NCBI RefSeq assembly: GCF_002252705.1 | Contig: NZ_NQLA01000003.1 | Coordinates: 62,001-126,000, forward strand | DNA from: Vulcanococcus limneticus LL | GTDB lineage: Bacteria; Cyanobacteriota; Cyanobacteriia; PCC-6307; Cyanobiaceae | DNA: 64,000 nucleotides | Direction: 5' to 3' | Part shown: positions 7,802 through 23,677 of the stretch, piece after piece | How the letters are laid out: each line of letters begins with the position of its first letter | Numbering within the stretch: the first letter of the stretch is position 1 | Notes under the pieces: generated by a model | Told to the model about the DNA's origin: nothing | Databases searched by the model: none | The model's input: the letters and a program-made list of their open reading frames with translations, nothing else | Program-made: the position numbers and the translations under genes

Positions 7802-8637
7802 GCGACCTAGCGGCGCGGCAGTCCGCCCCGATCGTGGTGGTGCTGGTCGAGCCGGCAGGCCCGCTCAATGTGGGCGGCGTGGCCCGGCTCTGCGCCAACT
7901 TCGCCATCGCCGAGCTGCGGCTGGTGGCCCCCCGCTGCGACCACCTCGGCGAGGAGGCCATGCGCATGGCGGTGCACGGCGGCGCGCTGCTGCAGCGGGC
8001 CCGCCTGTTCCCCGACCTGGCCGCGGCCCTGGCCGACTGCAGGCGGGTGGTGGCCAGCTGCGGTCAGGTGGCGCGCGACAGCCTGCCCCTGCAAAGCCCC
8101 GCCAGCGCCCTCGGCTGGCTGCTGGCGGGGGCCGCCCTGCCGACCGGGGAGCCGCCACCACCATCGGCGCTGGTGTTCGGACGCGAGGACCGGGGGCTGA
8201 GCACCGATGAACTGCTGCAGGCCGGCCAGGTGCTGCGCATTGCCACCGGCGAGGCCTACGCCTCCTTGAACCTCGCCCAGGCCGCCGCCATCTGCCTGCA
8301 CGAACTCCACCAGGCGCGGCTGCGGCAGGCCCAATCCGAAGAGCCGGGCCCGCCCGCCCCCCTGCCAGTGCCGACCACGGTGGCGGCGCCAAAGGGCGGC
8401 GAAACCCGAGCCGATCTCCTCGAGGAGCCGGCATGCCGCGGAGCCGTCGAGGCCATGCTTCAGGACGCGGAGGACCTGCTGCTGGCGGTGGGCTTCCTCT
8501 ACCCCCACACGGCCCATGCCCGCATGGCCAAGCTGCGGGGCCTGCTGCAGCGCGCCCAGATCCGCGACGGGGAGGTGGCCCTGGTGCGGGGCATGGTCCG
8601 GCAGCTGCGCTGGGCATCACAGCGGCGAAGCCCCTAA
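7798..8637 (+). CDS. TrmH/SpoU-family RNA 2'-O-methyltransferase (TrmJ-like)
   Basis: The 279-residue SPOUT methyltransferase shows the TrmJ/TrmH subgroup motifs: [20 protein letters not shown] (motif 1, N-x-G-x-x-A-R), [16 protein letters not shown] (motif 2) and [22 protein letters not shown] (motif 3, S-L-N). These form the trefoil-knot SAM site. The target is probably a tRNA or rRNA ribose; position 32 of tRNA would be the TrmJ assignment but is not provable here. GTG start in a GTGA overlap with the cytochrome stop. A ~60-residue C-terminal helical extension is TrmJ-like. Confidence 0.88.
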
Positions 8638-8666
8638 GGTCTGCCCCTGCCCGGATCCGCCCGCCC

Positions 8667-9854
8667 GTGAGTTCCCCTCGCCCCGCCCGCTCCGGCTCCG
8701 GCACCTGGGGGCCATTGCGCCTGCTGCTACGGCTGCTGGTCATGGGCATCGGCCTGGGGCTGATCAGCGGCACGGCCCTGAAGCTGCTGGCGCCGCGCCT
8801 GGCCCAGGGCTCGATCAACGCCCCCCGCGTCACCGGCAGCCCGGCCAGCCAGCCGCTCCAGGCCCTGCCGCGGGGCATCCCCCTGGGCCGCTTCGAGCCC
8901 CACCAGGAGCTCACGGGTCTGAGCAAGAAATGGGCGGCCCTGGCCGCAGTCCACAAGGATCTCAAGGCCAGCGCCTACCTGCTGGTGCTCGATGACGGTC
9001 GCTTTGCCCAGCTGCAGAGCGAGCTGCCCCTGCCGGCCGCCAGCTCGATCAAGACACCGATCCTGCTGGCGGCCATGGAGGACCTCGACGCCGGCCGCCT
9101 GCGCTGGGACCAGCCGCTGACCATGACCAAGGAGGTGGTGGGGGCCGGCGCCGGCTGGATGGCAAACAAGCCGGTGGGTACGCGCTTCCCGTTCCACGAG
9201 GCAGCCACCGAGATGATCCGCGTGAGCGACAACACCGCCACCAACCTGTTGATCAAGCGGCTCGGTGGCAAGACGGCCCTCAACACCCGCTTCCAGGCCC
9301 TGGGACTGCCGGGCACGGTGATCAACAACTGGCTTCCGGATCTGGAGGGCACCAACACCACCAGCGCCCACGACCTGGCCCGGAGCATCGCCCTGGTGGA
9401 CACCGGCGAAAAGCTCAGCCCCCGGGCCCGGGACCTGTTCCGCCAGGTGATGGGCAGCTCGCGCACCAACACCCTGATTCCCCTGGGCCTGCTGCAGGGC
9501 CTCGGCGGCGACTCGGCCGATCCCGATGCCGACCTGATGGCCTACGGCGTGACCGTGCTCAACAAGACCGGCGACATCGGCATCGCCTATGCCGATGGTG
9601 GCCTGATCGAGCTGCCCAACGGCCAGCGGGCCGTGGCCGCTTTCATGGTGAAGGGCCCCTTCAACGACCCCCGCTCCACCGACCTGATCCGTGCCATGGC
9701 CGCCGAGGTGGCCAAGCTGCTGGTGCCCCGCGGCTCCGCGGCCTCCCAGCCCGGCACCCAGCCCACCACGACGCCCTCCTCCACCGCGGCCCCCGCCGCG
9801 ACACCGTCCACCACGGCACCGTCCACCGCGACACCGTCCCCTGCCCGCCGCTGA
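8667..9854 (+). CDS. Class A beta-lactamase-fold serine hydrolase
   Basis: The protein has 395 residues from the GTG at 8667. An N-terminal signal anchor (LLRLLVMGIGLGLISGTALKLL) places the enzyme in the periplasm. All three penicillin-interactive motifs are present: SSIK (nucleophile Ser, about 127), SDN (about 186) and KTG (about 299). No clear Glu166 omega-loop motif is seen, so a DD-peptidase or other peptidoglycan role is at least as likely as true beta-lactamase activity. The last ~45 residues are a Pro/Thr/Ala tail with a 15-bp periodicity (ATPST/TAPST/ATPSP). The next gene starts at its stop codon. Confidence 0.85.
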   Translation: MSSPRPARSGSGTWGPLRLLLRLLVMGIGLGLISGTALKLLAPRLAQGSINAPRVTGSPASQPLQALPRGIPLGRFEPHQELTGLSKKWAALAAVHKDLKASAYLLVLDDGRFAQLQSELPLPAASSIKTPILLAAMEDLDAGRLRWDQPLTMTKEVVGAGAGWMANKPVGTRFPFHEAATEMIRVSDNTATNLLIKRLGGKTALNTRFQALGLPGTVINNWLPDLEGTNTTSAHDLARSIALVDTGEKLSPRARDLFRQVMGSSRTNTLIPLGLLQGLGGDSADPDADLMAYGVTVLNKTGDIGIAYADGGLIELPNGQRAVAAFMVKGPFNDPRSTDLIRAMAAEVAKLLVPRGSAASQPGTQPTTTPSSTAAPAATPSTTAPSTATPSPARR

Positions 9855-12413: not shown

Positions 12414-12878
12414 ATGCGCATCATCGGCCTCGATCCGGGCCTGGCCCGCGTCGGCTACGGCGTGATCGACACCGGCGGCGGCCAGCAGCGCCTGCTGGAC
12501 TGCGGCATCATCCGCACCGACCCCGGCCGCAGCGAGGGCGAACGGATGGTGGAGATCGCCCGGGATCTGCGCCAGCTGATCCGGGCCTGGCGGCCGGAGC
12601 TGGCGGCTGTGGAGAAGTTCTTCTTCTACCGCTCCAGCACCACGATCGCCGTGGTGCAGGCCCGCGGCGTGCTGATGATGACCCTGGCCCGCTTCGCCAT
12701 CCCAGTGGTGGAGTTCCCGCCGATGCAGATCAAACTGGCCGTGGCCGGCCACGGCCACGCCGGCAAGGACGACGTGCTGACGGCCGTGATGCGCGAGCTG
12801 AACCTTGAGGTGCCACCACGGCCGGATGACGCCGCCGACGCCCTGGCCGTGGCCCTGACCGGCTGGTTCCAGCGCTGA
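12414..12878 (+). CDS. ruvC: Holliday junction resolvase RuvC
   Basis: The 154-residue endodeoxyribonuclease cleaves Holliday junctions in the RuvABC pathway. The catalytic acidic residues are all visible: Asp in [17 protein letters not shown], Glu in LAAVEKFFF, and the Asp pair in [13 protein letters not shown]. The [20 protein letters not shown] stretch matches the family loop. Length is normal. A perfect 10-bp inverted repeat spans its stop codon (see the separate entry). Confidence 0.95.
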
Positions 12879-13032: not shown

Positions 13033-14055
13033 ATGCCCGTCTCCCCACGTCCCACCGGCCCCCTGCGCACCAGCCGTCGCCGGGTACTGCTGAGCACGGC
13101 ACTCGTGCTGGCCGGAGGACTGGCCAGCTCGATCACGGCCCTGGCACCGAGCAGCTCGATGGCGGCGGCGGCCGGCGACAAGAGCGTGCGTGTCGGCTAC
13201 CAGAAGTATGGCACCCTCAGCATCCTCAAATCACGCGGGAGCCTGGAGCGGGCCTTCGCCGCGAAGGGCGTGAAGGTGGACTGGCTGCTGTTCCCTGCCG
13301 GCCCCGCCCTGCTGGAGGCCCTGAACACCGGCAGCATCGACCTGGGCAGCGTCGGTGAGGCGCCGCCGATCTTTGCCCAGGCCGCCAACAATCCCTTCGT
13401 CTACGTGGCCTCCAGCACCCCCAATCCCCGCGGCGAGGGGATCCTGGTGCCAAAGAACTCTCCCTTGCGCAGCGTCAAGGATCTCAAGGGCAAGAAGGTG
13501 GCCCTGAATAAGGGCTCCAACGTGCATTACCTGCTGGTCAAGCTGCTCGAGAAGAACGGCCTCAAATACAGCGACGTCAACGTGGTGTTCCTGCCTCCGG
13601 CTGACGCCCGGGCCGCCTATGAGGCCGGCTCGGTGGATGCCTGGGTGATCTGGGATCCCTTCTTCACCCAGGCCAAGCGGGCCACCAACTCGCGGGTGCT
13701 GGCCGATGGCGAGGGCGTGGTGGCCAACCGGGAGTTCTTCCTCTTCAGCCGCGACTTCGCCAAGGGCCGCAGCAAGGATGCCAAGACCATCCTGAGTGAG
13801 CTGGAAAAGACCGACAGCTGGGCCAAGAAGAACGTGAGCGCCGTGGCCAACCAGCTCTCACCGGAGCTCAAGATCGACGCCCCCACCCTGGTGGAAGTGC
13901 TGAACCGACGCCCCAGCGGCATCGTGCCGATCAGCCCGGCGATCATCAGCTATCAGCAGAACGTGGCCGACACCTTCAAGGAGTTGAAGCTGATTCCCGT
14001 CAAGATCAACGTCAAGGAGAAGGTGTACAGCGATCCGGTGTTCAAGACCAAGTGA
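13033..14055 (+). CDS. ssuA: Aliphatic sulfonate ABC transporter, substrate-binding protein (first copy)
   Basis: This 340-residue SsuA-type periplasmic binding protein delivers alkanesulfonates to the SsuBC importer. The start at ATG 13033 gives a twin-arginine-like [17 protein letters not shown] signal peptide ending near SSSMAAAAG. Mature-protein landmarks are [92 protein letters not shown] and [12 protein letters not shown]. It is the first gene of ssuA-ssuD-ssuC-ssuB. A longer in-frame ORF from 12922 lacks a signal-like start. Confidence 0.95.
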
Positions 14056-14107
14056 CACGCCGCTGACTGACCAGACCATTCCACCCACTCCCCCCACAGG
14101 ATCCCCG

Positions 14108-15253
14108 ATGCAGCTGTTCTGGTTCATTCCCCTGCATGGCGATGGCCAGTACCTGGGCACCTCGACAGGCGGCCGGCAGATCACCCTGCCCTATCTGCAG
14201 GTGATCGCCCGCGCCGCCGACCACCTGGGCTACACCGGGGTGCTGCTGCCCACCGGTCGCTCCTGCCACGACGCCTGGGTGGCCGCCTCGATGCTGGCGG
14301 CCACCACCGAGCGGCTCAAGTTCCTGGTGGCGGTCAGGCCAGGTCTGATGTCACCGGGGGTGGCGGCGCGGATGGCCGCCAGCTTCGATCGCCTCAGCAA
14401 TGGCCGCCTGCTGATCAACGTCGTCACCGGCGGCGATCCGGTGGAGAACGCCGGCGACGGCCTCCACCTCAGCCATGACGATCGCTACAGGCTGACCGAT
14501 GAGTTCCTGACCGTCTGGCGCGCGATGCTGCGGGGCGAGCGCACCGACTTCCAGGGCGACTTCCTCGACATCCGCGATGGCAGCGTGATCCATCGGGGTG
14601 TACAGCAGCCCCACCCACCGCTGTGGTTCGGCGGCTCGTCGGAGGCCGGTCAGGATGTGGCGGCCCGCCACGTGGACACCTATCTCACCTGGGGCGAACC
14701 GCCCGAGCTGGTGAAGCAGAAGGTCGAGGCGGTGCGGGAGCGCGCCCGGCGTCAGGGGCGCGAGCTGGAGTTCGGCATCCGTCTGCACATCATCGTTCGC
14801 GAGACCAACCAGCAGGCCTGGGATGCGGCCGACGACCTGATCCGCTATGTGGACGACGCCACCATCGCCGAGGCCCAGAAGGTCTACAGCCGCATGGATT
14901 CAGTCGGCCAGAGCCGCATGACCCAGCTCCACGCCGGTAGCCGCAACGCCCTGGAGGTGAGCCCGAACCTCTGGAGCGGCGTGGGCCTGGTGCGCGGCGG
15001 CGCCGGCACGGCCCTGGTGGGCGATGCCGACACGGTGGCCCGGCGCCTGGAGGAGTACGCCGAGCTGGGAATCCAGCACTTCATCCTCTCGGGCTATCCC
15101 CATTTGGAGGAGGCCTACCGGGTGGCGGAACACCTGTTCCCGCGGTTGCCGCTGGAGCTGCCCCCCGCCCCCGAAGGTCAGCTTGTGCTGGCGCCCTTCG
15201 GCGAGATCATCGCCAACGCCAAGGTTCCGGCCGCAGCGAAGGTGCAGGGCTGA
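14108..15253 (+). CDS. ssuD: FMNH2-dependent alkanesulfonate monooxygenase
   Basis: The 381-residue luciferase-like (TIM-barrel) monooxygenase splits alkanesulfonates into sulfite and an aldehyde using FMNH2 and O2. SsuD landmarks are [80 protein letters not shown] and [14 protein letters not shown]. The C-terminal [34 protein letters not shown] is also typical. Length is normal. No ssuE flavin reductase lies nearby, so FMNH2 must come from an unlinked reductase. It overlaps ssuC by 1 nt (TGATG). Confidence 0.97.
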
Positions 15254-16080
15254 TGGCGCGCTTCCAACCCTTCCAGCTGAACCCTCGGCTCAAGCGCAGC
15301 CTGATTCCCTGGCTGGTGCCCTTGCTGCTGCTGGTGCTCTGGCAGCTGCTCGCCAGCCGGGGCGTGATCCCCACCCGCATCCTGCCTGCTCCCTCTGCCA
15401 TCGCCCTGGCGGCCATCAATATGGGCCGCTCCGGCGAGCTCTGGGGCCACCTGTCGATCAGCGCCGGTCGGGCCGGCGTGGGCTTCTTGATCGGAGCTTC
15501 GTTAGGGCTGCTGTTCGGCCTCATCAATGGCCTGATGCCGCGGGCGGAACTGCTGCTGGATTCGTCCTTCCAGATGCTCCGCAATATTCCACCGCTGGCG
15601 ATGATCCCGCTGGTGATCCTCTGGTTTGGGATCGGCGAGGAGGCTCGAGTCTTCCTGGTTTCTGTAGGTGTGTTCTTCCCGGTGTACCTGAACACCTTCC
15701 ATGGCATCCGCTCGATCGATCCAGGCCTGATCGAGATGGGCAAGGTCTACGGCCTGAGCCCCTGGCAGATCGTGACCAATATCGTGCTGCCGGGGGCCAC
15801 CCCATCCATCTTGGTGGGCGTGCGCTTCTCCCTTGGGATTGCCTGGATCATCCTGATCGTGGGCGAGCAGATCGCCGCCAATAGCGGCATCGGTTACATG
15901 GCCATGAATGCCCGTGAGTTCATGCAGACGGACATCATCGTCTTCAGCATCATTCTCTACGCCCTCCTTGGCAAGCTTTCCGACAGCATGGCCCGCGGCC
16001 TTGAGCACAGGCTATTGCCGTGGCATCCCAATTTCCAGCGCACCGCCAAGGCCGTGCCCAGCAAGCCCGCGATTTCCTGA
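15253..16080 (+). CDS. ssuC: Aliphatic sulfonate ABC transporter, permease (first copy)
   Basis: The 275-residue inner-membrane permease of the sulfonate importer has six or so hydrophobic segments, beginning with LIPWLVPLLLLVLWQLLASRG. The cytoplasmic EAA-type loop that contacts the ATPase reads EMGKVYGLSPWQIVTNIVLPGATPSILVGV. The PTRILPAPSAIA N-terminal segment and the FGIGEEARVFLVSVGVFFPVYLN motif are typical of SsuC/TauC. It is translationally coupled to ssuD and followed 6 nt later by ssuB, whose start is preceded by GAGGAG. Confidence 0.95.
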   Translation: MARFQPFQLNPRLKRSLIPWLVPLLLLVLWQLLASRGVIPTRILPAPSAIALAAINMGRSGELWGHLSISAGRAGVGFLIGASLGLLFGLINGLMPRAELLLDSSFQMLRNIPPLAMIPLVILWFGIGEEARVFLVSVGVFFPVYLNTFHGIRSIDPGLIEMGKVYGLSPWQIVTNIVLPGATPSILVGVRFSLGIAWIILIVGEQIAANSGIGYMAMNAREFMQTDIIVFSIILYALLGKLSDSMARGLEHRLLPWHPNFQRTAKAVPSKPAIS

Positions 16081-16086
16081 GGAGCC

Positions 16087-16989
16087 ATGAGCACAACCAC
16101 CCCTGGCACCAGCCTGCAACTGGTCGAACTGACCAAGACCTACGCAGGTCGTCCCGTACTCAGCGCCATTGATTTGGCCGTTGACGGCGGTCATTTCGTG
16201 GCCATCGTGGGCCGCAGTGGCTGCGGTAAATCCACGCTGCTGCGACTGCTGAGCGGCCTGGAAGCTCCCTGCGACGGGGGCGTGCTGGTGAACGGCGAGC
16301 CCCTGCGCAGCGTGAACCTGCACGCTCGGATCATGTTCCAGGACGGCCGCCTGCTCCCCTGGAAGAGCGTGCTCGACAACGTGGGCCTGGGACTGCGCGG
16401 CGACTGGCGCTCCCGTGGCCTCGAGGTGCTGCGCCACGTGGGCCTGCACGAGCGGGCCGGCGACTGGATCGCCCGGCTCTCCGGCGGCCAGCGCCAGCGG
16501 GTGGCCCTGGCCAAGGCTCTGATCACCCAGCCGCGGCTGATGCTGCTGGATGAGCCCCTCGGTGCCCTTGACGCGCTCACCCGCATCGAGATGCAGCAGC
16601 TGATCGAGAACCTCTGGCTTGAGGAGGGCTTCACCTCGATTCTGGTCACCCACGATGTGGAGGAGGCCGTCACCCTGGCGGACCGGATTCTGGTATTGGA
16701 GGAGGGCCGCATTGCCCGCGATTTCCGCAACGACCTGCAGCGCCCGCGTCGCCGCGGCGATCCGGGATTCTCCCAGCTCACGGCCGAAATCCTCGACACG
16801 ATCCTCACCCAGGGCGGCCAGGGATCGGCGCCGCAAAAGACAGCGGACCACGCGACAGAGGCCGTAACGCCAGAGCATGGCCACAGCCCCCGGCCCACAG
16901 GCCAGCCCGCCGGTGCGCGCGGCTCAGAACGCTCCGACTCCCCCCCCATCGGCGAGCCCTCTGGGGCCCTCACGGCCCAGCTGCAATAG
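16087..16989 (+). CDS. ssuB: Aliphatic sulfonate ABC transporter, ATP-binding protein (first copy)
   Basis: The ABC ATPase (300 residues) powers SsuC. Walker A is GRSGCGKST (about residue 40), Q-loop [11 protein letters not shown], signature [16 protein letters not shown], Walker [14 protein letters not shown], and switch His in [17 protein letters not shown] after the Q-loop is characteristic of the SsuB/TauB class. The last ~60 residues (from about 240) are a low-complexity Pro/Ser/Thr tail absent from most SsuB proteins; it is probably disordered. GAGGAG precedes the ATG. End of the first operon. Confidence 0.95.
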
Positions 16990-17151
16990 CCCCCCAGACA
17001 GCTCCGCACAGATCCGCATAGACAGGTCACTGTCCAGTTCTCTGACTACAAGCGGGAGTGGAAGCTGCCACACAAGATGGGAACACCATCCCACACACTT
17101 CCTGAATGGATCGGTGCCAACCCGGCGCCACCTTTGACCATCACAACAGCC

Positions 17152-18174
17152 ATGGCTTTTCGCGCTCCGACAACATCCCGCCGCTCCGTATTCCGTCTCG
17201 CGCTGGCGACCGGCCTGGCACTGGCGGGAACCCTGGGGCTTTCCTCTTCCAGCAGCGCCCTGGCCCAGGCCAAGCCAGCGAGCACCGTGCGCCTGGACTA
17301 CGCCTACTACAACCCGGTGAGCCTGGTGCTCAAGGACCGCGGCATCCTGGAGAAGGAGCTGAAGAAGAAGAACATCAAGGTGGAATGGGTGCTCAGCCAG
17401 GGCAGCAACAAGGCCCTGGAATTCCTGGGGGCCCGCAGCCTGGACTTCGGCTCGACCGCCGGTGCAGCGGCCTTCATCGGCAAGGCCAATGGCAACCCGA
17501 TCAAGGCCATCTACGTCTACTCCAAACCCGAGTGGGCGTCTCTGGTGGTCCCGAACGGCTCCAAGATCAAATCCGTGAAGGATCTCAAAGGCAAGAAAGT
17601 GGCCGCCAACCGCGGCACTGATCCCTACATCTTCCTGCTGCGCACCCTCGATCGCAATGGCCTGGCCCCCCGCGACGTGGAGATTGTGCAGCTGGCCCAC
17701 GCCGACGGCAAAACGGCCCTGGAGAAGGGCGATGTTGATGCCTGGGCGGGCCTGGATCCGCTGACTGCCAAGTCGGAGATCGAAGCCAAATCGAAGCTGC
17801 TTTATCGCAACCCCGATTTCAACACCTTCGGGGTTCTGAACGTGCGTGAGGAGTTTGCCAAGCAGAATCCCGATACGGTGCTGAGCGTGCTGCGAGCCTA
17901 TGAACAGGCCCGCCAATGGGCTCTGAAGAATCCCCAGGAACTCAAGAAGGTGCTGATCACGGATTCGAAGCTCACCGATGCGGTCGCGACCCGTCAGCTG
18001 GAGCGCACCGACCTGCGCAACTCCAGCATCGGCGCCCCACAGAAGACCTCGATCCTGGCCGCTGCGGATGTGCTCAAGAAGGCCGGTGTTATCCCGCCCT
18101 CCACCAACACCAAGGCGGTGGTCGACAGCCTGATCGATCCCAGCTACGTCAACAAGCTCAAGACCGGCAAGTGA
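17152..18174 (+). CDS. SsuA-like ABC substrate-binding protein (second copy)
   Basis: The 340-residue periplasmic SBP is of the sulfonate/nitrate/taurine class, paralogous to the first SsuA. The ATG at 17152 gives a clear signal peptide (TSRRSVFRLALATGLALAGTLGL, cleavage near ALAQA). Mature segments are [68 protein letters not shown] and GDVDAWAGLDPLT. The ligand-contact segments differ from copy one (AGLDPLT in place of VIWDPFF), suggesting another sulfur compound. Its stop overlaps the permease GTG by 4 nt. It starts the second operon, 162 nt after ssuB. Confidence 0.92.
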   Translation: MAFRAPTTSRRSVFRLALATGLALAGTLGLSSSSSALAQAKPASTVRLDYAYYNPVSLVLKDRGILEKELKKKNIKVEWVLSQGSNKALEFLGARSLDFGSTAGAAAFIGKANGNPIKAIYVYSKPEWASLVVPNGSKIKSVKDLKGKKVAANRGTDPYIFLLRTLDRNGLAPRDVEIVQLAHADGKTALEKGDVDAWAGLDPLTAKSEIEAKSKLLYRNPDFNTFGVLNVREEFAKQNPDTVLSVLRAYEQARQWALKNPQELKKVLITDSKLTDAVATRQLERTDLRNSSIGAPQKTSILAAADVLKKAGVIPPSTNTKAVVDSLIDPSYVNKLKTGK

Positions 18175-19001
18175 CCACCCTCACGAACGTCGTCACGGAC
18201 AGGGCACCGCGCCGGCGGCTTCGGGGCCGGTTGCGTGCCTTCCGCGGCGCCCGCGCCCTGGCGCTGCCCCTGCTGATCCTGCTCATCTGGCAGGTGGTGC
18301 AGGCCCGCGCGGTGGTGCCGACCAACCTGCTGCCCACACCCTCCAGCGTGCTGGAGACAATCGGCACCCTGGCCTCCACCGGCGAGCTGGCCGAGCACAT
18401 CGCCATCACAAGCTGGCGGGTTCTGCAGGGATTCCTGCTGGGGGCGGTGGCCGCCACCGTGCTGGGCTCGATCACCGGCGTCTCCCGCACAGCGAGGGAA
18501 CTGATCGATCCGCTGCTGCAGTCGCTGCGCAGCATTCCCTCCCTGGCCTGGGTGCCCCTGTTCATCCTCTGGCTCGGCATCTACGAGCCATCCAAGGTGG
18601 CCCTGATTGCGGTGGGGGCCTTCTTCCCCGTCTACCTGAGCCTCACCCAGGGCCTGCTGGATGTGGACCGCAAGCTGGTGGAGGTGGGCCGGATGGTGGG
18701 ATTCAACCGGCTGGATCTGGTGCGTTGCATCCTGATCCCTGCCGCCCTGCCGGCCTACGTGACCGGCCTGCGGGGCGGCCTGGGCCTGGCCTGGATGTTC
18801 GTCGTGGCGGCCGAGGTGATGGGCGCCAGCAAGGGCCTGGGCTTCCTCCTGGTGGACGGCCAACAGACGGGGCGGGCGTCCCTGATCCTGGCCAGCATCC
18901 TGCTGTTCGCCCTACTCGGCAAGCTCACTGACGGACTGCTCAGCTTGCTCTCCCAGCGCCTCCTGCAGTGGCAGGACTCCCATTCGCTCCAGGCCGCCTG
19001 A
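18171..19001 (+). CDS. SsuC-like ABC permease (second copy)
   Basis: The 276-residue permease starts at GTG 18171 inside a GTGA overlap with the preceding SBP stop. Hydrophobic spans start at ALALPLLILLIWQVVQAR. VVPTNLLPTPSSVLETI and WLGIYEPSKVALIAVGAFFPVYLS match the SsuC/TauC family. The EAA loop is EVGRMVGFNRLDLVRCILIPAALPAYVTGL. It is about as long as the first SsuC but clearly diverged from it. The ATPase gene begins 1 nt after its stop. Confidence 0.93.
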   Translation: MTTLTNVVTDRAPRRRLRGRLRAFRGARALALPLLILLIWQVVQARAVVPTNLLPTPSSVLETIGTLASTGELAEHIAITSWRVLQGFLLGAVAATVLGSITGVSRTARELIDPLLQSLRSIPSLAWVPLFILWLGIYEPSKVALIAVGAFFPVYLSLTQGLLDVDRKLVEVGRMVGFNRLDLVRCILIPAALPAYVTGLRGGLGLAWMFVVAAEVMGASKGLGFLLVDGQQTGRASLILASILLFALLGKLTDGLLSLLSQRLLQWQDSHSLQAA

Positions 19002-19002
19002 G

Positions 19003-19791
19003 ATGCTCCAGCTCGAAACGGTCAGCAAGACCTACCGCAACGGCTTCACCGCCCTCGAACCGATCGATCTGCGGATCGAGGCCGGTGAGCGGGTGGCGAT
19101 CGTGGGCAGCAGCGGCTGCGGCAAATCGACCCTGCTGCGGCTGGCTGCGGGGCTGTGCCCCCCCAGCACCGGCCGGGTGCTGCTGCACGGCAGACCCGTG
19201 ATCAAGCCGGAGCCCAGCGTGGGCTTCATCTTCCAGGAGCCGCGACTGATGCCCTGGCTCACCGTGGAGCAGAACGTGGCCTTCGGCCTGCGGGGTCCGG
19301 CCCGCCACCGCCACGCCAGCGTGAGCTCGGCCCTGCTGCGGGTGGGCCTCACGGCCTACGGCCACTACTACCCGAAGCAACTCTCCGGCGGCATGGCCCA
19401 GCGGGTGGCCATCGCCCGGGCCCTGGCCAGTGCGCCGCAGCTGATTCTGCTGGATGAACCCTTCAGTGCCCTCGATGCCATCAAGCGGGCCGAGCTGCAG
19501 GAGCACTTTCTGCAGCTGTGGGAATCGGAGCAGCTCTCCACCCTGATCGTGACCCACGATGTGGAGGAGGCGATCGTGCTGGCCGACCGCATCCTGGTGA
19601 TGCAACCCCACCCCGGCCGCATCACCGAGGAGCTGCGCCTGGATCTGCCCCTGGACAACTGCCGCGAGGCGCCCGGCTTTGAGGCCCTCAAGAAGCAACT
19701 GATCCAGAGCCTGCGCCCGCCCAGCGTTGGCGCGGGCCAGACCGGCGCCGACCCAGTACCCTTCGCCGTCGCCCACGCCATCCATGGCTGA
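19003..19791 (+). CDS. SsuB-like ABC ATP-binding protein (second copy)
   Basis: This 262-residue ABC ATPase serves the second importer. Walker A is GSSGCGKST, Q-loop FIFQEPRLMPWLTVEQN, signature LSGGMAQRVAIARALA, Walker B LILLDEPFSALDAI, and H-loop [16 protein letters not shown]. It lacks the long tail of the first SsuB. Its 3' end overlaps the start of the flavin monooxygenase gene by 8 nt, tying that enzyme to this transporter in one transcript. Confidence 0.94.
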   Translation: MLQLETVSKTYRNGFTALEPIDLRIEAGERVAIVGSSGCGKSTLLRLAAGLCPPSTGRVLLHGRPVIKPEPSVGFIFQEPRLMPWLTVEQNVAFGLRGPARHRHASVSSALLRVGLTAYGHYYPKQLSGGMAQRVAIARALASAPQLILLDEPFSALDAIKRAELQEHFLQLWESEQLSTLIVTHDVEEAIVLADRILVMQPHPGRITEELRLDLPLDNCREAPGFEALKKQLIQSLRPPSVGAGQTGADPVPFAVAHAIHG

Positions 19792-20995
19792 GCAGCTGAT
19801 CACGCCCCTGCAGGACCTCGCCGCCCGCCCCCGGGAACGGCTGACGCCGCAACAGGCCGTGGACGCCCTCTGCCAGGACCTGGTCCGTGACGCTGTCGCC
19901 CGCGACCGCGTCGGAGGCGTGCCGCTGGCGGCCCGACAGTGGATTCGCGACACGGGGCTGCTGGGCCTGAGCGTCCCGACACCCTGGGGCGGCACCGGCT
20001 GGAGCTGGTCGGCGATCTCGCCCCTCGTACGGCAGGTCGCCCGGGTCGACAGCTCGGTGGCCCACCTGCTCTCGTACCACTACCTCGGACTGACAATCCC
20101 GCTGATCTTCGGCGATGCGGCCGGGGCCGAGGCCCTGCTGCGCCGCACCGCGAGCAAGCAGCTGTTCTGGTGCAACGCCCTCAACCCCCGCGATCGGCGC
20201 TCCCACCTGCGGGCCGAGGGCCCGGCCTATCGCCTCGATGGCCTGAAGAGCTTCTGCTCCGGCAGCCACGACTCCGACGTGATCCCCACCACCGCCGTGC
20301 TGGAGAGCACGGGCGAGCTGGTGATCGTGATCCTGCCCACCCGCACGCCAGGAGTGGACCTCCTGGACGACTGGGACGCCATCGGCCAGCGCCAGACCAG
20401 CAGCGGCACGGTGCGGTTCGAGCAGGTGGCTGTACAGCCCGAGCAGATCTTCTACCCCAGCCGGCAGGGGAGCAGCGCCTTCTCCTCCGCGCGCACGCTG
20501 CTGGCCCAGCTGAACCTGGCCAACATCTATCTGGGCCTGGCCGAAGGGGCCCTGCAGGCGGCCGTGGATCAGGTGCGCGAGCGCCAGGCCGCCGCGCCCG
20601 ATCAGCCGAAGGACCCCACCCAGGCGGTGCTGGCCCGGGATCGCTTTGCCCAGCTCTGGGTGCAGCTGCAAGGGGCCAGTGCCCACTATGAGCTCGCCCT
20701 GACGGAGCTCGAGACCGCCTGGCAGCAGGGCCGGGCCCTCACCGCCGAGCAGCGCGGCAGCACCGCAATCACGATCGCCACCACCAAGGTGCTGGCCACC
20801 GAAGTCGCCCTGGCAATCAGCTCGGCCATCTTCGATCGGCTCGGCGCCCGATCCACCGGCGCCAGCCACGGCCTGGATCGCTATTGGCGCAACATCCGAA
20901 CCCTCAGCCTGCACGATCCAGTCGAAGCCAAGCTGCAGGAGATCGGTGCCTTCGTGATCGAGGGGAGCGCTCCAACTCCCGGGTTCTACAGCTAG
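19784..20995 (+). CDS. SfnB/DszC-like flavin-dependent monooxygenase (acyl-CoA dehydrogenase fold)
   Basis: The 403-residue protein has the acyl-CoA dehydrogenase fold but belongs to the sulfur-acquisition branch (SfnB, DszC). Branch marks are WCNALNPRD, LDGLKSFCSGSHDSD, DDWDAIGQRQTSSGTVRF, QLNLANIYLGLAEGALQAA and the C-terminal FDRLGARST-GLDRYWRN(I)RTLSLHDP. DszC oxidises thioether sulfur with FMNH2; SfnB is encoded in the dimethyl sulfone operon of Pseudomonas. Here it is the last gene of an SsuACB-type operon, so it probably oxidises the imported organosulfur compound. Substrate unknown; no dedicated flavin reductase is present. ATG 19784 is preferred. Confidence 0.85.
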   Translation: MAEQLITPLQDLAARPRERLTPQQAVDALCQDLVRDAVARDRVGGVPLAARQWIRDTGLLGLSVPTPWGGTGWSWSAISPLVRQVARVDSSVAHLLSYHYLGLTIPLIFGDAAGAEALLRRTASKQLFWCNALNPRDRRSHLRAEGPAYRLDGLKSFCSGSHDSDVIPTTAVLESTGELVIVILPTRTPGVDLLDDWDAIGQRQTSSGTVRFEQVAVQPEQIFYPSRQGSSAFSSARTLLAQLNLANIYLGLAEGALQAAVDQVRERQAAAPDQPKDPTQAVLARDRFAQLWVQLQGASAHYELALTELETAWQQGRALTAEQRGSTAITIATTKVLATEVALAISSAIFDRLGARSTGASHGLDRYWRNIRTLSLHDPVEAKLQEIGAFVIEGSAPTPGFYS

Positions 20996-21002
20996 AACGC
21001 AA

Positions 21003-21944
21003 TCAGTGGGGCTTGCGGGCTGTGGCCAGTAGCAGATAGCGCTCCAGGCGAATGCCCTCCACCTCCCGGAAGGGTTCGAGACGCCGCTCGGCTTCGGCGC
21101 GCAGGCCGACATTCTCGGGCCTGGACAGTTCATCGCTGAAGTTGCCGAAAAAGGAGCTGGCATTCCAGAGCAGCAGGTGATCGAGATCGGAGAAGTGATC
21201 CACAAAGGTGACTAGCTCCAGCTGGCCTTCAACCAGATCGAGATCGGCTAACCACTGCCGCACCTGTGGCTCGGTGACGACATGGGGCGGCACCAGCAGT
21301 CCCGATCCCGGGCGATCCGCCAGCAGCGGTTCGAGGATCGCCACCTGCTGGTGCAGGCGATCGGGGCGGGCCGCACTGAACCCAATCTGCCCGCCGGGCT
21401 TGAGCAGCCGCCGAACATCGGCGATCAGCTGCCGCTGATCCGCCACCCAGTGCAGCACGCTGTTCAGAAAAACCACATCAAACTGGGCGGGGCGATAGTG
21501 ATGCAGGTCCGCTGATCCACCTCGCTCAAAGCGCAGCCCCGGGACATCGCCACTGCTCTGCTGCGCCAGGGCAACCCGCTCCGGCAGAGGCTCCAGGGCC
21601 AGCAGCGAGCCGGCCGGCCCCACCAGGGCGGCCGCCTCTCGGGCCAGTTCGCACGTGCCAGTGCCGATGTCGAGCACCGACTCCCCCGCCTGCAGCGCCA
21701 GCCGCTCGAGCAACAGGCGGCCGTGACGCAGCTGGGGGCCATTGGAGCGGGCGTAGCCGCGGGCCAGGGCATCACTGTCGTTGTCGAAGCCGACGGGAGC
21801 GGGCTGGGCTTTGGCGAGGGCGCTCCTACCGGGGGAATCGAGGTGCTGGGAAGCAGGCAAAACGGGCTGGCCAGGCCGCGTCCTCCTATGCGGAAAGCGC
21901 CTACCGGCGGTGTAGTGGCGACAACGCGGCACAGGCAGGATCAC
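21003..21944 (-). CDS. SAM-dependent methyltransferase, class I
   Basis: This is a 313-residue Rossmann methyltransferase. Motif I is VLDIGTGTCELAREAA (about residue 90), motif II LLALEPLPERVALAQ, and motif IV FDVVFLNSVLHWVADQRQLIADVRRLLKPGGQIGFS. The C-terminal half is an all-helical cap-like region. It resembles UbiE/BioC-type small-molecule methyltransferases. It lies inside the sulfur island in opposite orientation, converging with the monooxygenase (7 nt apart) and diverging from the third SBP. The first ~40 residues look non-conserved; a TTG at 21860 is an alternative start. Substrate unknown. Confidence 0.8.
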   Translation of the reverse strand: MILPVPRCRHYTAGRRFPHRRTRPGQPVLPASQHLDSPGRSALAKAQPAPVGFDNDSDALARGYARSNGPQLRHGRLLLERLALQAGESVLDIGTGTCELAREAAALVGPAGSLLALEPLPERVALAQQSSGDVPGLRFERGGSADLHHYRPAQFDVVFLNSVLHWVADQRQLIADVRRLLKPGGQIGFSAARPDRLHQQVAILEPLLADRPGSGLLVPPHVVTEPQVRQWLADLDLVEGQLELVTFVDHFSDLDHLLLWNASSFFGNFSDELSRPENVGLRAEAERRLEPFREVEGIRLERYLLLATARKPH

Positions 21945-22011
21945 TGCAAGGATTATGGGGAAAGATGCCGGTTCAACGCATCAGCGGCTGGCATTGATTC
22001 GTACTGCTCCG

Positions 22012-23034
22012 ATGCCAGCCAACCCCGCCATGCCGCACCTGAAAGCCGCCACCAGAATCGTGCCCGTACTGGGGCTCGGCGTGCTGGGCGCTGCGGTACT
22101 CCTGCCGGGCAGCGTTCCCCTCGGCCTCGAGCTGGGCAGCAGCGCCCGGGCTGCGGCCAAGCCCGTGGTGCTGCGCATCGGCCACCAGAAGTTCGACCCC
22201 CTCACCCTGGTGAAGTTCCGGGGGGATCTGGAGGCCAAGCTCAAGCCACTCGGGGTCACCGAAGTGAAGTGGGTGGAGTTCCCCTCCGGTCCGCCGATCC
22301 TGGAGGCCCTGAGCGTGGGCAGCATTGACATCGGCCGCACCGGCGACACACCGCCAGTGGTAGCCCAGGCGGCCGGGGTGCCGTTCGTCTATGTGGGCAC
22401 CAGTGAGCCGAAGGCCAGGAGTTCGGCGATCCTGGTGAAGAAGAATTCGCCGATCCGCAGCCTCGCCGATCTCAAGGGCAAGAAGATCGCCTTCGGCAAG
22501 AGCACGAGCGCCCACTACTTCACGATCAAGGCGCTGCAATCGGCGGGCCTGTCCCTCAAGGATGTGGAGCCGGTCTACCTGGCCCCGGCAGATGCCCGCT
22601 CCGCCTTCAATCAGGGCTCTATCGATGCCTGGGCCATCTGGGATCCCTTCAACGCCTCCACCGCCGCCCAGAGCGACGTCCGGGTGCTGATCACCAGCGA
22701 GGGTCTGGTCACCAACCGCGACTTCTACCTGGCCACCAAGTCGTTCGCCCAGGAGAACCCCGACGTGATCAGGGGGCTACGCAGGGAAACCCAGGCAGTG
22801 TCCCGCTGGGCCAACCGCAACGACGACAAGGTGGTGGCGTTCTTCTCGCCGCTGATCAAACTCGATCCGTCGGTGCTCCAGGTGGTCGTGAAACGGCGCG
22901 ACTTCTCCTTCGTGCCCTTCACCCCCAAGGTGGTGGCCGAGCAGCAGGAGATTGCCGACAGCTTCGCCAAGCTGAAGCTGATCCCCAGACCCATCAAGGT
23001 GCAGAGCGCCGTGGATCCCGCCTTCCTCAAGTAG
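22012..23034 (+). CDS. SsuA-like ABC substrate-binding protein (third, orphan copy)
   Basis: This is a third 340-residue sulfonate-class SBP. The ATG at 22012 gives a signal region (RIVPVLGLGVLGAAVLLPG, cleavage near ARAAA). LRIGHQKFDPLTLVKFRGDLE, LEALSVGSIDIGRTGDTPPVVAQAA, LADLKGKKIAFGKSTSAHYF and FNQGSIDAWAIWDPF place it closer to the first SsuA than to the second. No permease or ATPase follows, so it probably docks on one of the two upstream importers. It is divergent from the methyltransferase, with 67 nt between starts. Confidence 0.93.
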   Translation: MPANPAMPHLKAATRIVPVLGLGVLGAAVLLPGSVPLGLELGSSARAAAKPVVLRIGHQKFDPLTLVKFRGDLEAKLKPLGVTEVKWVEFPSGPPILEALSVGSIDIGRTGDTPPVVAQAAGVPFVYVGTSEPKARSSAILVKKNSPIRSLADLKGKKIAFGKSTSAHYFTIKALQSAGLSLKDVEPVYLAPADARSAFNQGSIDAWAIWDPFNASTAAQSDVRVLITSEGLVTNRDFYLATKSFAQENPDVIRGLRRETQAVSRWANRNDDKVVAFFSPLIKLDPSVLQVVVKRRDFSFVPFTPKVVAEQQEIADSFAKLKLIPRPIKVQSAVDPAFLK

Positions 23035-23098: not shown

Positions 23099-23677
23099 CT
23101 GGGTTCCGCGACCAAGCCCGACCTGCGCCGGCGGTTCCGGCAACGCCGTCTCGAGGTCCTGCCGGACGTGGAGGCGGCGATCCTGGCCAGCGCCCACCAT
23201 CACTTGCCGGCGCTGGTACCGGAGGCCAGATTCCTGGGGCTCTACTGGCCCTTGGCCGGCGAAGCGGATCTGCGCAGCCTCAGCGGTTCAATGGCCGGCC
23301 GGCTGGCCCTGCCGGCCATTGAAGGCGGTTCGCCCGATCAGGCGGGGATGGTCTACCGCCCCTGGCGGGCCGACGGGCCCCTGCGGCCGGACGCCTGCGG
23401 CATCCCCGCGCCGGAGCCCGGCGATGGCAACGCGCCGCCGCTTGGGCCGGAGCGCATGGCGCTGCTGCTGGCCCCATCCCTGGCCTGCGATGCCGCCGGC
23501 ATCCGCCTGGGCTACGGCGGCGGCTGGTTCGACCGCCTGCGCTCCGAGCCGGCCTGGGCCGCCGTGCCGACCCTGGCGGTGCTGCCCTCGGTCTGCCGGC
23601 TGCCGGCCCTGCCCAGGGACCCCTGGGACATCCCGCTGCAGGGCTGGCTGGATGAGACAGGCCTCCATTGGTTCTGA
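23099..23677 (+). CDS. 5-formyltetrahydrofolate cyclo-ligase (start codon unusual)
   Basis: The enzyme converts 5-formyl-THF to 5,10-methenyl-THF with ATP. It shows the family's N-terminal basic helix (KPDLRRRFRQRRLEV), the middle GLYWPLAGEADLR, and the C-terminal signature LLAPSLACDAAGIRLGYGGGWFDR (normally G-x-R-L-G-Y/x-GGG-Y/W-D-R). The basic helix is in frame but upstream of the first ordinary start (GTG 23168), and no ATG, GTG or TTG precedes it back to the previous gene. CTG at 23099 would give 192 residues, normal for the family; starting at 23168 gives 169 and loses the substrate-binding helix. Confidence 0.85.
   Translation: MGSATKPDLRRRFRQRRLEVLPDVEAAILASAHHHLPALVPEARFLGLYWPLAGEADLRSLSGSMAGRLALPAIEGGSPDQAGMVYRPWRADGPLRPDACGIPAPEPGDGNAPPLGPERMALLLAPSLACDAAGIRLGYGGGWFDRLRSEPAWAAVPTLAVLPSVCRLPALPRDPWDIPLQGWLDETGLHWF

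Follow-up and report, generated by a model that had tools for sequence, protein, structure and literature searches.

The window analysed here, a 64,000-nt stretch of the genome of Vulcanococcus limneticus LL (assembly GCF_002252705.1, contig NZ_NQLA01000003.1, positions 62,001 to 126,000 of the forward strand), contains an island of ten genes predicted to serve the uptake and oxidation of organic sulfur compounds. They encode two ATP-binding cassette (ABC) importers, a third solute-binding protein (SBP), two flavin monooxygenases and a methyltransferase, and all ten reading frames are open. The genes, followed by the two flanking genes, are as follows.

13033..14055, plus strand: SBP1, SsuA-type sulfonate-binding protein (SsuA_fam, 242 bits; cut-off, 163.5)
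14108..15253, plus strand: SsuD, alkanesulfonate monooxygenase dependent on reduced flavin mononucleotide (FMNH2) (equivalog TIGR03565, 595 bits; cut-off, 518)
15253..16080, plus strand: SsuC, sulfonate ABC permease (best model PRK11365, 323 bits, under the cut-off of 347)
16087..16989, plus strand: SsuB, sulfonate ABC ATPase (best model PRK11247, 348 bits, under the cut-off of 395)
17152..18174, plus strand: SBP2, divergent SsuA-family binding protein of the second importer (SsuA_fam, 260 bits)
18171..19001, plus strand: permease of the second importer (BPD_transp_1; 38% identity to SsuC)
19003..19791, plus strand: ATPase of the second importer (ABC_tran; 47% identity to SsuB)
19784..20995, plus strand: second monooxygenase, of flavin group D (nearest solved structure, MsuC 6u76)
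21003..21944, minus strand: class I S-adenosylmethionine (SAM)-dependent methyltransferase, start uncertain (Methyltransf_11, 57 bits)
22012..23034, plus strand: SBP3, SsuA-type, without a permease of its own (SsuA_fam, 233 bits)
12414..12878, plus strand: ruvC (named by eye), left flank, adjoining the right-flank gene in genus-mates
23168..23677, plus strand: 5-formyltetrahydrofolate cyclo-ligase-like gene (named by eye), right flank

The original prediction, made from the letters of this stretch, had given the order ssuA-ssuD-ssuC-ssuB, SBP-permease-ATPase-monooxygenase and a third SBP; all of these open reading frames (ORFs) were present in that order and on the same strand. The overlaps or spacings of 1-8 nt that it gave for the second operon agreed with the coordinates found, namely a 4-nt overlap, a 1-nt gap and an 8-nt overlap from SBP2 to the monooxygenase. 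Its gene list had overlooked the minus-strand methyltransferase before SBP3, of which about the first 45 aa are not common to its relatives.

The site was compared within the genus in a sample of 24 other genomes, 22 of which gave a ruvC match, and 21 were examined (G009 was not included; G018 and G019 gave none). In 20 of the 21, ruvC was followed directly by the cyclo-ligase-like gene, and no match to an island gene lay between them (E <= 1e-5). G016, the closest genome by ruvC (96%), had an orthologue of SBP2 (70%) alone at the site with no permease or ATPase beside it, and the short stretch before this gene matched the window DNA before SBP2 in 20 of 23 alignment columns. An insertion after ruvC, the island was probably gained laterally; in G016, either SBP2 arrived first or the rest of the island was lost, the latter being an option because an SBP without a permease is of little use. 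SsuD was found in none of the 24 genus-mates (E <= 1e-60). No repeats of note were observed at the island ends. Contamination was rejected as the origin, since the island is flanked by genes that are conserved in the genus and lies within a contig of 203 kb. The third-position GC content was 0.82-0.91 in nine of the ten island genes, the methyltransferase (0.77) being the exception, and 0.89-0.95 in four flanking genes. The closeness to photosynthesis genes, which had been thought worth attention, means little, because bchI-ruvC is a neighbourhood common to the genus, with the island following ruvC.

The Ssu alkanesulfonate system is known in Escherichia coli, Pseudomonas and Bacillus. As in that system, SBP1, SsuD, SsuC and SsuB of the island (module 1) are encoded in one operon, with SsuD over the equivalog cut-off; the island operon differs in lacking ssuE and in having the second importer and monooxygenase directly downstream. 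Alignment showed that SsuD possessed C53, W195, R225, H227, R296 and Y330, which we take to be the catalytic residues, and its nearest solved structures were MsuD 7jv3 (526 bits) and E. coli SsuD (513 bits). By profile and residue tests, module 1 is an Ssu system, with desulfonation as its predicted activity.

Residues Q36, G68, G86 and S141 of X. citri SsuA are reported to hold the sulfonate, with W185 facing the alkane chain (PMC3839906). All five were kept in SBP3, and SBP1 kept Q36, G68, G86 and W185 with N in place of S141; SBP2, though over the SsuA_fam cut-off, kept none, having A, S, A, D and L at these positions. Nor did any of the five occur in any of the 23 SBP2 orthologues of at least 50% identity, some of them nearly identical, that were left after 4 of 27 SBP2-labelled hits below 50% had been dropped. 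The nearest solved relative of SBP1 was E. coli SsuA 2x26 (231 bits), against which SBP3 scored 229 bits; SBP2 scored 81 bits with E. coli SsuA. The island would thus hold two sulfonate-type binders and one SBP with another, strictly conserved pocket. The differences in the ligand region pointed out earlier (VIWDPFF, AGLDPLT and AIWDPFN) are real, and AGLDPLT in SBP2 reads as the mark of a separate ligand class. The equal length of 340 aa, also pointed out, is true with the starts chosen but looks like a coincidence of start choice; it was rejected as a meaningful feature, since the longest ORFs of four other SsuA-type SBPs over the cut-off elsewhere in the genome were 332, 353, 375 and 391 aa. 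SBP3 probably shares one of the two island permeases. On contig C148 (L033, 1136-3878), an SsuA_fam transporter was seen beside glutamine synthetase-like genes (by eye), with a like arrangement in G016 (L045); membership in SsuA_fam therefore need not mean a sulfonate ligand.

The solved structure nearest to the second monooxygenase was MsuC 6u76 (288 bits), followed by DszC (233 bits). Against the curated equivalogs, it reached 264 of 850 bits for DszC and 229 of 431 bits for SfnB, both below the cut-off. It shares family and fold with these two enzymes. Twelve DszC positions of presumed importance were examined, including H92 and H388, which we take to be the active-site histidines; the enzyme matched DszC at eight (H92, Y96, N129, F161, S163, W205, R370 and H391) and differed at 88, 91, 282 (Q for R282) and 388 (L for H388), with 88 and 91 matching MsuC. 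Position 388 is also L in a paralogue on contig C19 (45% identical to the island enzyme), F in 15 other cyanobacterial rows and Q in MsuC. Identity with DszC was rejected, the score being under the cut-off and H388 being L with H92 kept; so was identity with SfnB, on its score. Of the two flavin monooxygenases that the original prediction had named, both are of the two-component type; the second, which it had placed with SfnB and DszC, is nearer to MsuC than to DszC. MsuC is reported to convert methanesulfinate to methanesulfonate, between SfnG and MsuD (PMC8234197). Module 2 (SBP2, permease, ATPase and monooxygenase) resembles an S-oxygenase of the MsuC type that has been joined to an importer of its own, with MsuC itself as a candidate assignment.

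Further organosulfur genes were found in the genome (3,548,884 bases in 160 contigs). The 10-kb contig C51 (L038, 352-3479, minus strand) carries, in a row, genes for SfnG (611 bits; cut-off, 383), SsuE (198; cut-off, 164) and SfnB (609; cut-off, 431). A second SsuD (586 bits; cut-off, 518) is encoded on C120, together with an SsuA-type SBP and, between the two, a gene weakly like that for D-threonate kinase (L036, 4905-9541, minus strand). On C49 (L034, 7728-10073, minus strand), genes for an SsuA-type SBP and an NtaA/DmoA-family monooxygenase had a GC content of about 55%, so far under the 68% of the genome that this pair was either recently acquired or lies outside the main chromosome. As in the msuEDC/sfnG route of Pseudomonas, SfnG, an MsuC-like enzyme, SsuD/MsuD-type enzymes and a flavin reductase are all encoded in the genome; here, however, the genes are scattered over several contigs, and that for the MsuC-like enzyme lies in an ABC-importer operon. 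Transporters for dimethyl sulfone were described as uncharacterised in 2021 (PMC8234197). SfnG was over its cut-off in 10 of 376 genomes of the class, and all 10 were among the genomes of the class with the monooxygenase (61 of 388; E <= 1e-40); the hypergeometric probability was 5e-9, a value that ignores kinship and treats the samples of 376 and 388 as one. Such co-occurrence would be expected if the enzyme performs the MsuC step, and is inflated by kinship.

Those 61 genomes belong to 39 of the 159 genera in the class sample. The monooxygenase was found in none of 36 other genomes of the family (E <= 0.001); one further family member in the class-wide sample, G415, gave a partial match with an internal stop, and there (L131, 9531-11313) the stop-containing copy adjoins two SBP3-like pieces on the other strand. 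When public genome contigs were searched with the monooxygenase sequence, just two distant heterotroph loci came up. For the gene neighbourhoods, 45 loci were used. Of these, 44 (the best 42, together with G050 and G415) were drawn from the 70 matches in other genomes, and one came from a plasmid of Synechococcus elongatus UTEX 3055; probe matches interrupted by a stop, and those spanning under half of the probe, were left out before loci were counted. SBP2, permease and ATPase lay within 8 kb upstream of the monooxygenase on the same strand in 21 of the 45, one of them on the S. elongatus plasmid. Within 10 kb, SsuD was present in 13, an SsuE-like reductase in 11 and an SsuA-type SBP in 25. 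The SBP2-permease-ATPase block adjoined SsuD and an SsuE-like reductase in G164, G108, G171, G153 and G134, with SsuC and SsuB also near in all of these but G108. The idea that such breadth beside photosynthesis is unusual was rejected on these frequencies (61 of 388 genomes and 21 of 45 loci); it is unusual within the family (0 of 36).

The closest counterpart was observed in UTEX 3055, where both importers, both monooxygenases and a methyltransferase lie on one 89-kb plasmid (NZ_CP033062, 28877-42271). Its cluster comprises SBP-ssuD-permease-ATPase, two further SBPs, a second permease and ATPase, a methyltransferase and an acyl-CoA dehydrogenase-type monooxygenase; unlike the island, it is plasmid-borne, and genes for an arylsulfatase, another methyltransferase and an anaerobic sulfatase maturase stand in its middle, between the two importer modules (L144, 5618-8942). 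A like set lies on a 2.7-Mb contig of G046, which is probably of the same species because its SsuD is nearly identical. No literature linking S. elongatus, sulfonate, sulfur starvation and ABC transporters was found. In Nostoc punctiforme, Npun_F5882 is reported as an alkanesulfonate monooxygenase in a predicted operon with sulfonate transporters, its knockout being unable to colonise moss (PMC7784912); the island shares with it a cyanobacterial SsuD-type enzyme accompanied by sulfonate transporters, the difference being the role in symbiosis. Nostoc muscorum is described as depleting taurine and choline-O-sulfate from moss (PMC8941135). For V. limneticus LL itself, alkanesulfonate monooxygenases and sulfonate transporters were already given in the genome paper of 2018. 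The general organosulfur finding has thus been in print since then; the passages available from that paper mention no island, second monooxygenase or methyltransferase.

The methyltransferase family of the island was confined, among the 388 genomes of the class, to this one (E <= 1e-25, on the best first-look candidates per genome), where both copies stand beside an MsuC-like gene, as monooxygenase-methyltransferase-SBP3 in the island and as SBP-monooxygenase-methyltransferase on C19. The trio on C19 (L035, 14371-17470) is closely packed on one strand. In a plasmid collection, 21 records matched (E <= 1e-8); Paraburkholderia and Bradyrhizobium accounted for 14 and gave the longest matches. Six plasmids taken from these 14 records, and representing two lineages, were examined, and all six carried nearby a flavin monooxygenase of NtaA/DmoA type and an ABC importer whose SBP is NMT1/SsuA-like; membership in NtaA/DmoA was confirmed by profile in two and rested in the others on similarity to the C49 protein, one matching in two pieces.

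A different methyltransferase, here MT', was found at 15 loci in 13 of the 388 genomes (E <= 1e-20), S. elongatus included, and each of the 15 had the monooxygenase, an SsuA-type SBP or an NtaA/DmoA-type enzyme no more than 1.6 kb away. The methyltransferase beside the monooxygenase in UTEX 3055 belongs to MT' (85% to that of G046) and not to the family of the island. MT' matched the C19 methyltransferase weakly (30% over 110 residues) and that of the island not at all at E <= 1e-3. Of 40 MT' plasmid records, five were examined; UTEX 3055 fits the pattern, and one from Planktothrix and three distant ones (32-33% identity) do not. At L154, L150 and L149, MT' is accompanied by TauD-type dioxygenases, picked by eye and confirmed by Pfam in all three, by several SsuA-type SBPs in L154 and L150, and by NtaA/DmoA-type enzymes in L154 and L149; these loci look like further organosulfur clusters. 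By title and abstract, no literature describing a methyltransferase as part of such clusters was found. Among known methyltransferases, MddM1 is reported to be of UbiG type (210 aa) and MddM2 (204 aa) of UbiE type, as is MddH (PMC12904073). The methyltransferase appears to belong to the gene set and is probably a genuine accessory of the monooxygenase.

From the genes, their families, conserved residues, insertion site and recurrence, we infer that this is probably a laterally gained organosulfur-scavenging island, in which Ssu desulfonation is combined with a second importer feeding an S-oxygenase whose product is cleaved by SsuD. Module 1 would import alkanesulfonates, and SsuD would cleave them to sulfite and an aldehyde with FMNH2 and oxygen. 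Module 2, together with SBP3 and the methyltransferase, would import a second class of organosulfur compounds through its differently built SBP; the MsuC-like enzyme would oxygenate the sulfur of the imported compound, and the resulting sulfonate would pass to SsuD. With SfnG and SsuE, the route would run from dimethyl sulfone to methanesulfinate (SfnG), to methanesulfonate (island monooxygenase or C19 paralogue) and to sulfite (SsuD). The methyltransferase might, as a guess, S-methylate a thiol-level intermediate, yielding an oxidisable thioether or serving detoxification. More broadly, we tentatively suggest, at somewhat less than even confidence, that SAM methyltransferases are an unrecognised working part of organosulfur scavenging; two families, apparently recruited independently to sites next to SsuA-type importers and two-component flavin monooxygenases, the latter with either the MsuC-like or the NtaA/DmoA-like fold, may methylate an intermediate at sulfur level, for instance by converting an imported thiol to an oxidisable thioether, in a module that would feed SsuD in V. 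limneticus. The modular scavenging system of the original prediction is partly borne out, as an uptake and oxidation island with two complete importers, an extra SBP and two flavin monooxygenases; it did not foresee that SBP2 would lack the five ligand residues.

Several observations weigh against this reading. The island genes have no single nearest lineage in trees. SsuD groups with S. elongatus (100/100) and SBP2 with G016 of the same genus (100/100); the monooxygenase, which is long-branched, has G155 as its partner (95/94), and no starred neighbour was obtained for the permease. The genes may thus form a mosaic. In the tree of the monooxygenase, MsuC was joined to a sequence from Methylocystis and fell next to the cyanobacterial sequences without being nested among them, and MsuC of Acinetobacter is reported to oxidise dimethyl sulfoxide (DMSO) weakly as well (PMC13352529), the family being promiscuous. 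No flavin reductase is present among the island genes, and the SfnG, SsuE and SfnB genes, which lie on a separate contig, have a GC content of 60.5-61.7%, compared with 66.7% for the island. Of six genomes with a sub-cut-off SfnG match, just one (G239) is in the monooxygenase list. Sixteen of the 45 loci had none of the probes (SsuD, SBPs, reductase, NtaA/DmoA-type, SfnG and MT') within 10 kb, some being cut by contig ends, so that the monooxygenase may also work without an importer. The ligand of SBP2 could lie outside sulfur metabolism. On the plasmids, the SBP beside the methyltransferase had 25-26% identity to SBP2 and no NCBIfam hit at E <= 1e-30 in Bradyrhizobium, and reached 127 bits with SsuA_fam, under the cut-off, in Paraburkholderia. 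As to regulation in common, which could be presumed, no gapped word was shared by more than three of the six upstream regions in one simple word search, in which 30 plain letter shuffles reached three in 24 rounds and four in five.

The role of the second monooxygenase can be read differently. It might act earlier, as a sulfide or sulfoxide oxidase like DszC or Dms1-3 of Acinetobacter, on thioethers entering through SBP2 or by diffusion, with sulfinate oxidation left to the C19 paralogue or absent. Dms1-3, group D enzymes, are reported to oxidise dimethyl sulfide (DMS) and DMSO (PMC13352529), SBP2 lacks the sulfonate site, and the long branch and the low identity to the C19 paralogue would agree with two copies that have split functions; however, MsuC is the top-scoring solved relative, H388 of DszC is replaced, and SfnG co-occurs with the enzyme family in 10 of 10 genomes, a count by which the paralogues are not separated. 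We consider this rather unlikely. That the second importer carries a ligand without organic sulfur, such as another anion or a nitrogen compound, on which the monooxygenase would act, seems improbable: the loss of the equivalents of Q36, G68, G86, S141 and W185 and the transporter on C148 would fit it, but the second importer adjoins SsuD and an SsuE-like reductase in five other cyanobacteria.

Whether the remaining genes take part at all bears on the scavenging reading as well. The methyltransferase is oriented against its neighbours, its cyanobacterial counterpart MT' is of a different family, the Planktothrix MT' relative adjoins a DMT transporter, the three more distant plasmid relatives lack genes of this kind, and the linkage counts come without a matched control of other methyltransferases; all of this would suit a bystander with no part in the pathway. 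Since both copies in the genome stand beside the monooxygenase in a family otherwise missing from the class sample, and organosulfur-type neighbours accompany 6 of 6 proteobacterial plasmids and 15 of 15 MT' loci, we find a bystander doubtful. There is likewise a small chance that the whole island was gained recently as cargo and is unused, or has since fallen out of use, as might be suggested by the solitary SBP2 of the closest genus-mate, by the stop inside the monooxygenase of G415, the sole other family member in the class-wide list, and by the report that acquired nif genes of this strain are not transcribed; against it stand the ten open frames, the retention of all tested residues in SsuD and of most in the monooxygenase, and a third-position GC content near that of the flanking genes in all but the methyltransferase. 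Apart from the island, an ORF at 8433-9854 of the window has the look of a serine hydrolase/beta-lactamase fold, with an SxxK-like motif seen by eye.

Picocyanobacteria are usually viewed as users of sulfate. For every step of the route that leads from dimethyl sulfone via methanesulfinate and methanesulfonate to sulfite, the genome of V. limneticus LL holds candidate genes, and the set found in the island occurs both on a plasmid of S. elongatus and, here, as a chromosomal insertion. A 2026 study of the DMS/dimethyl sulfone route dealt mainly with Pseudomonadota, the stem "cyanobacteri" being absent from its main text (PMC13352529). The kind of system is already known in cyanobacteria and is less unusual than first held; the recurring methyltransferase is, by the literature searched, the new part. 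Much of this is testable in UTEX 3055, where a single plasmid combines the two importers with the two monooxygenases and a methyltransferase. Both this methyltransferase association and the pocket of SBP2, conserved yet unlike that of SsuA, point to a further class of substrate.

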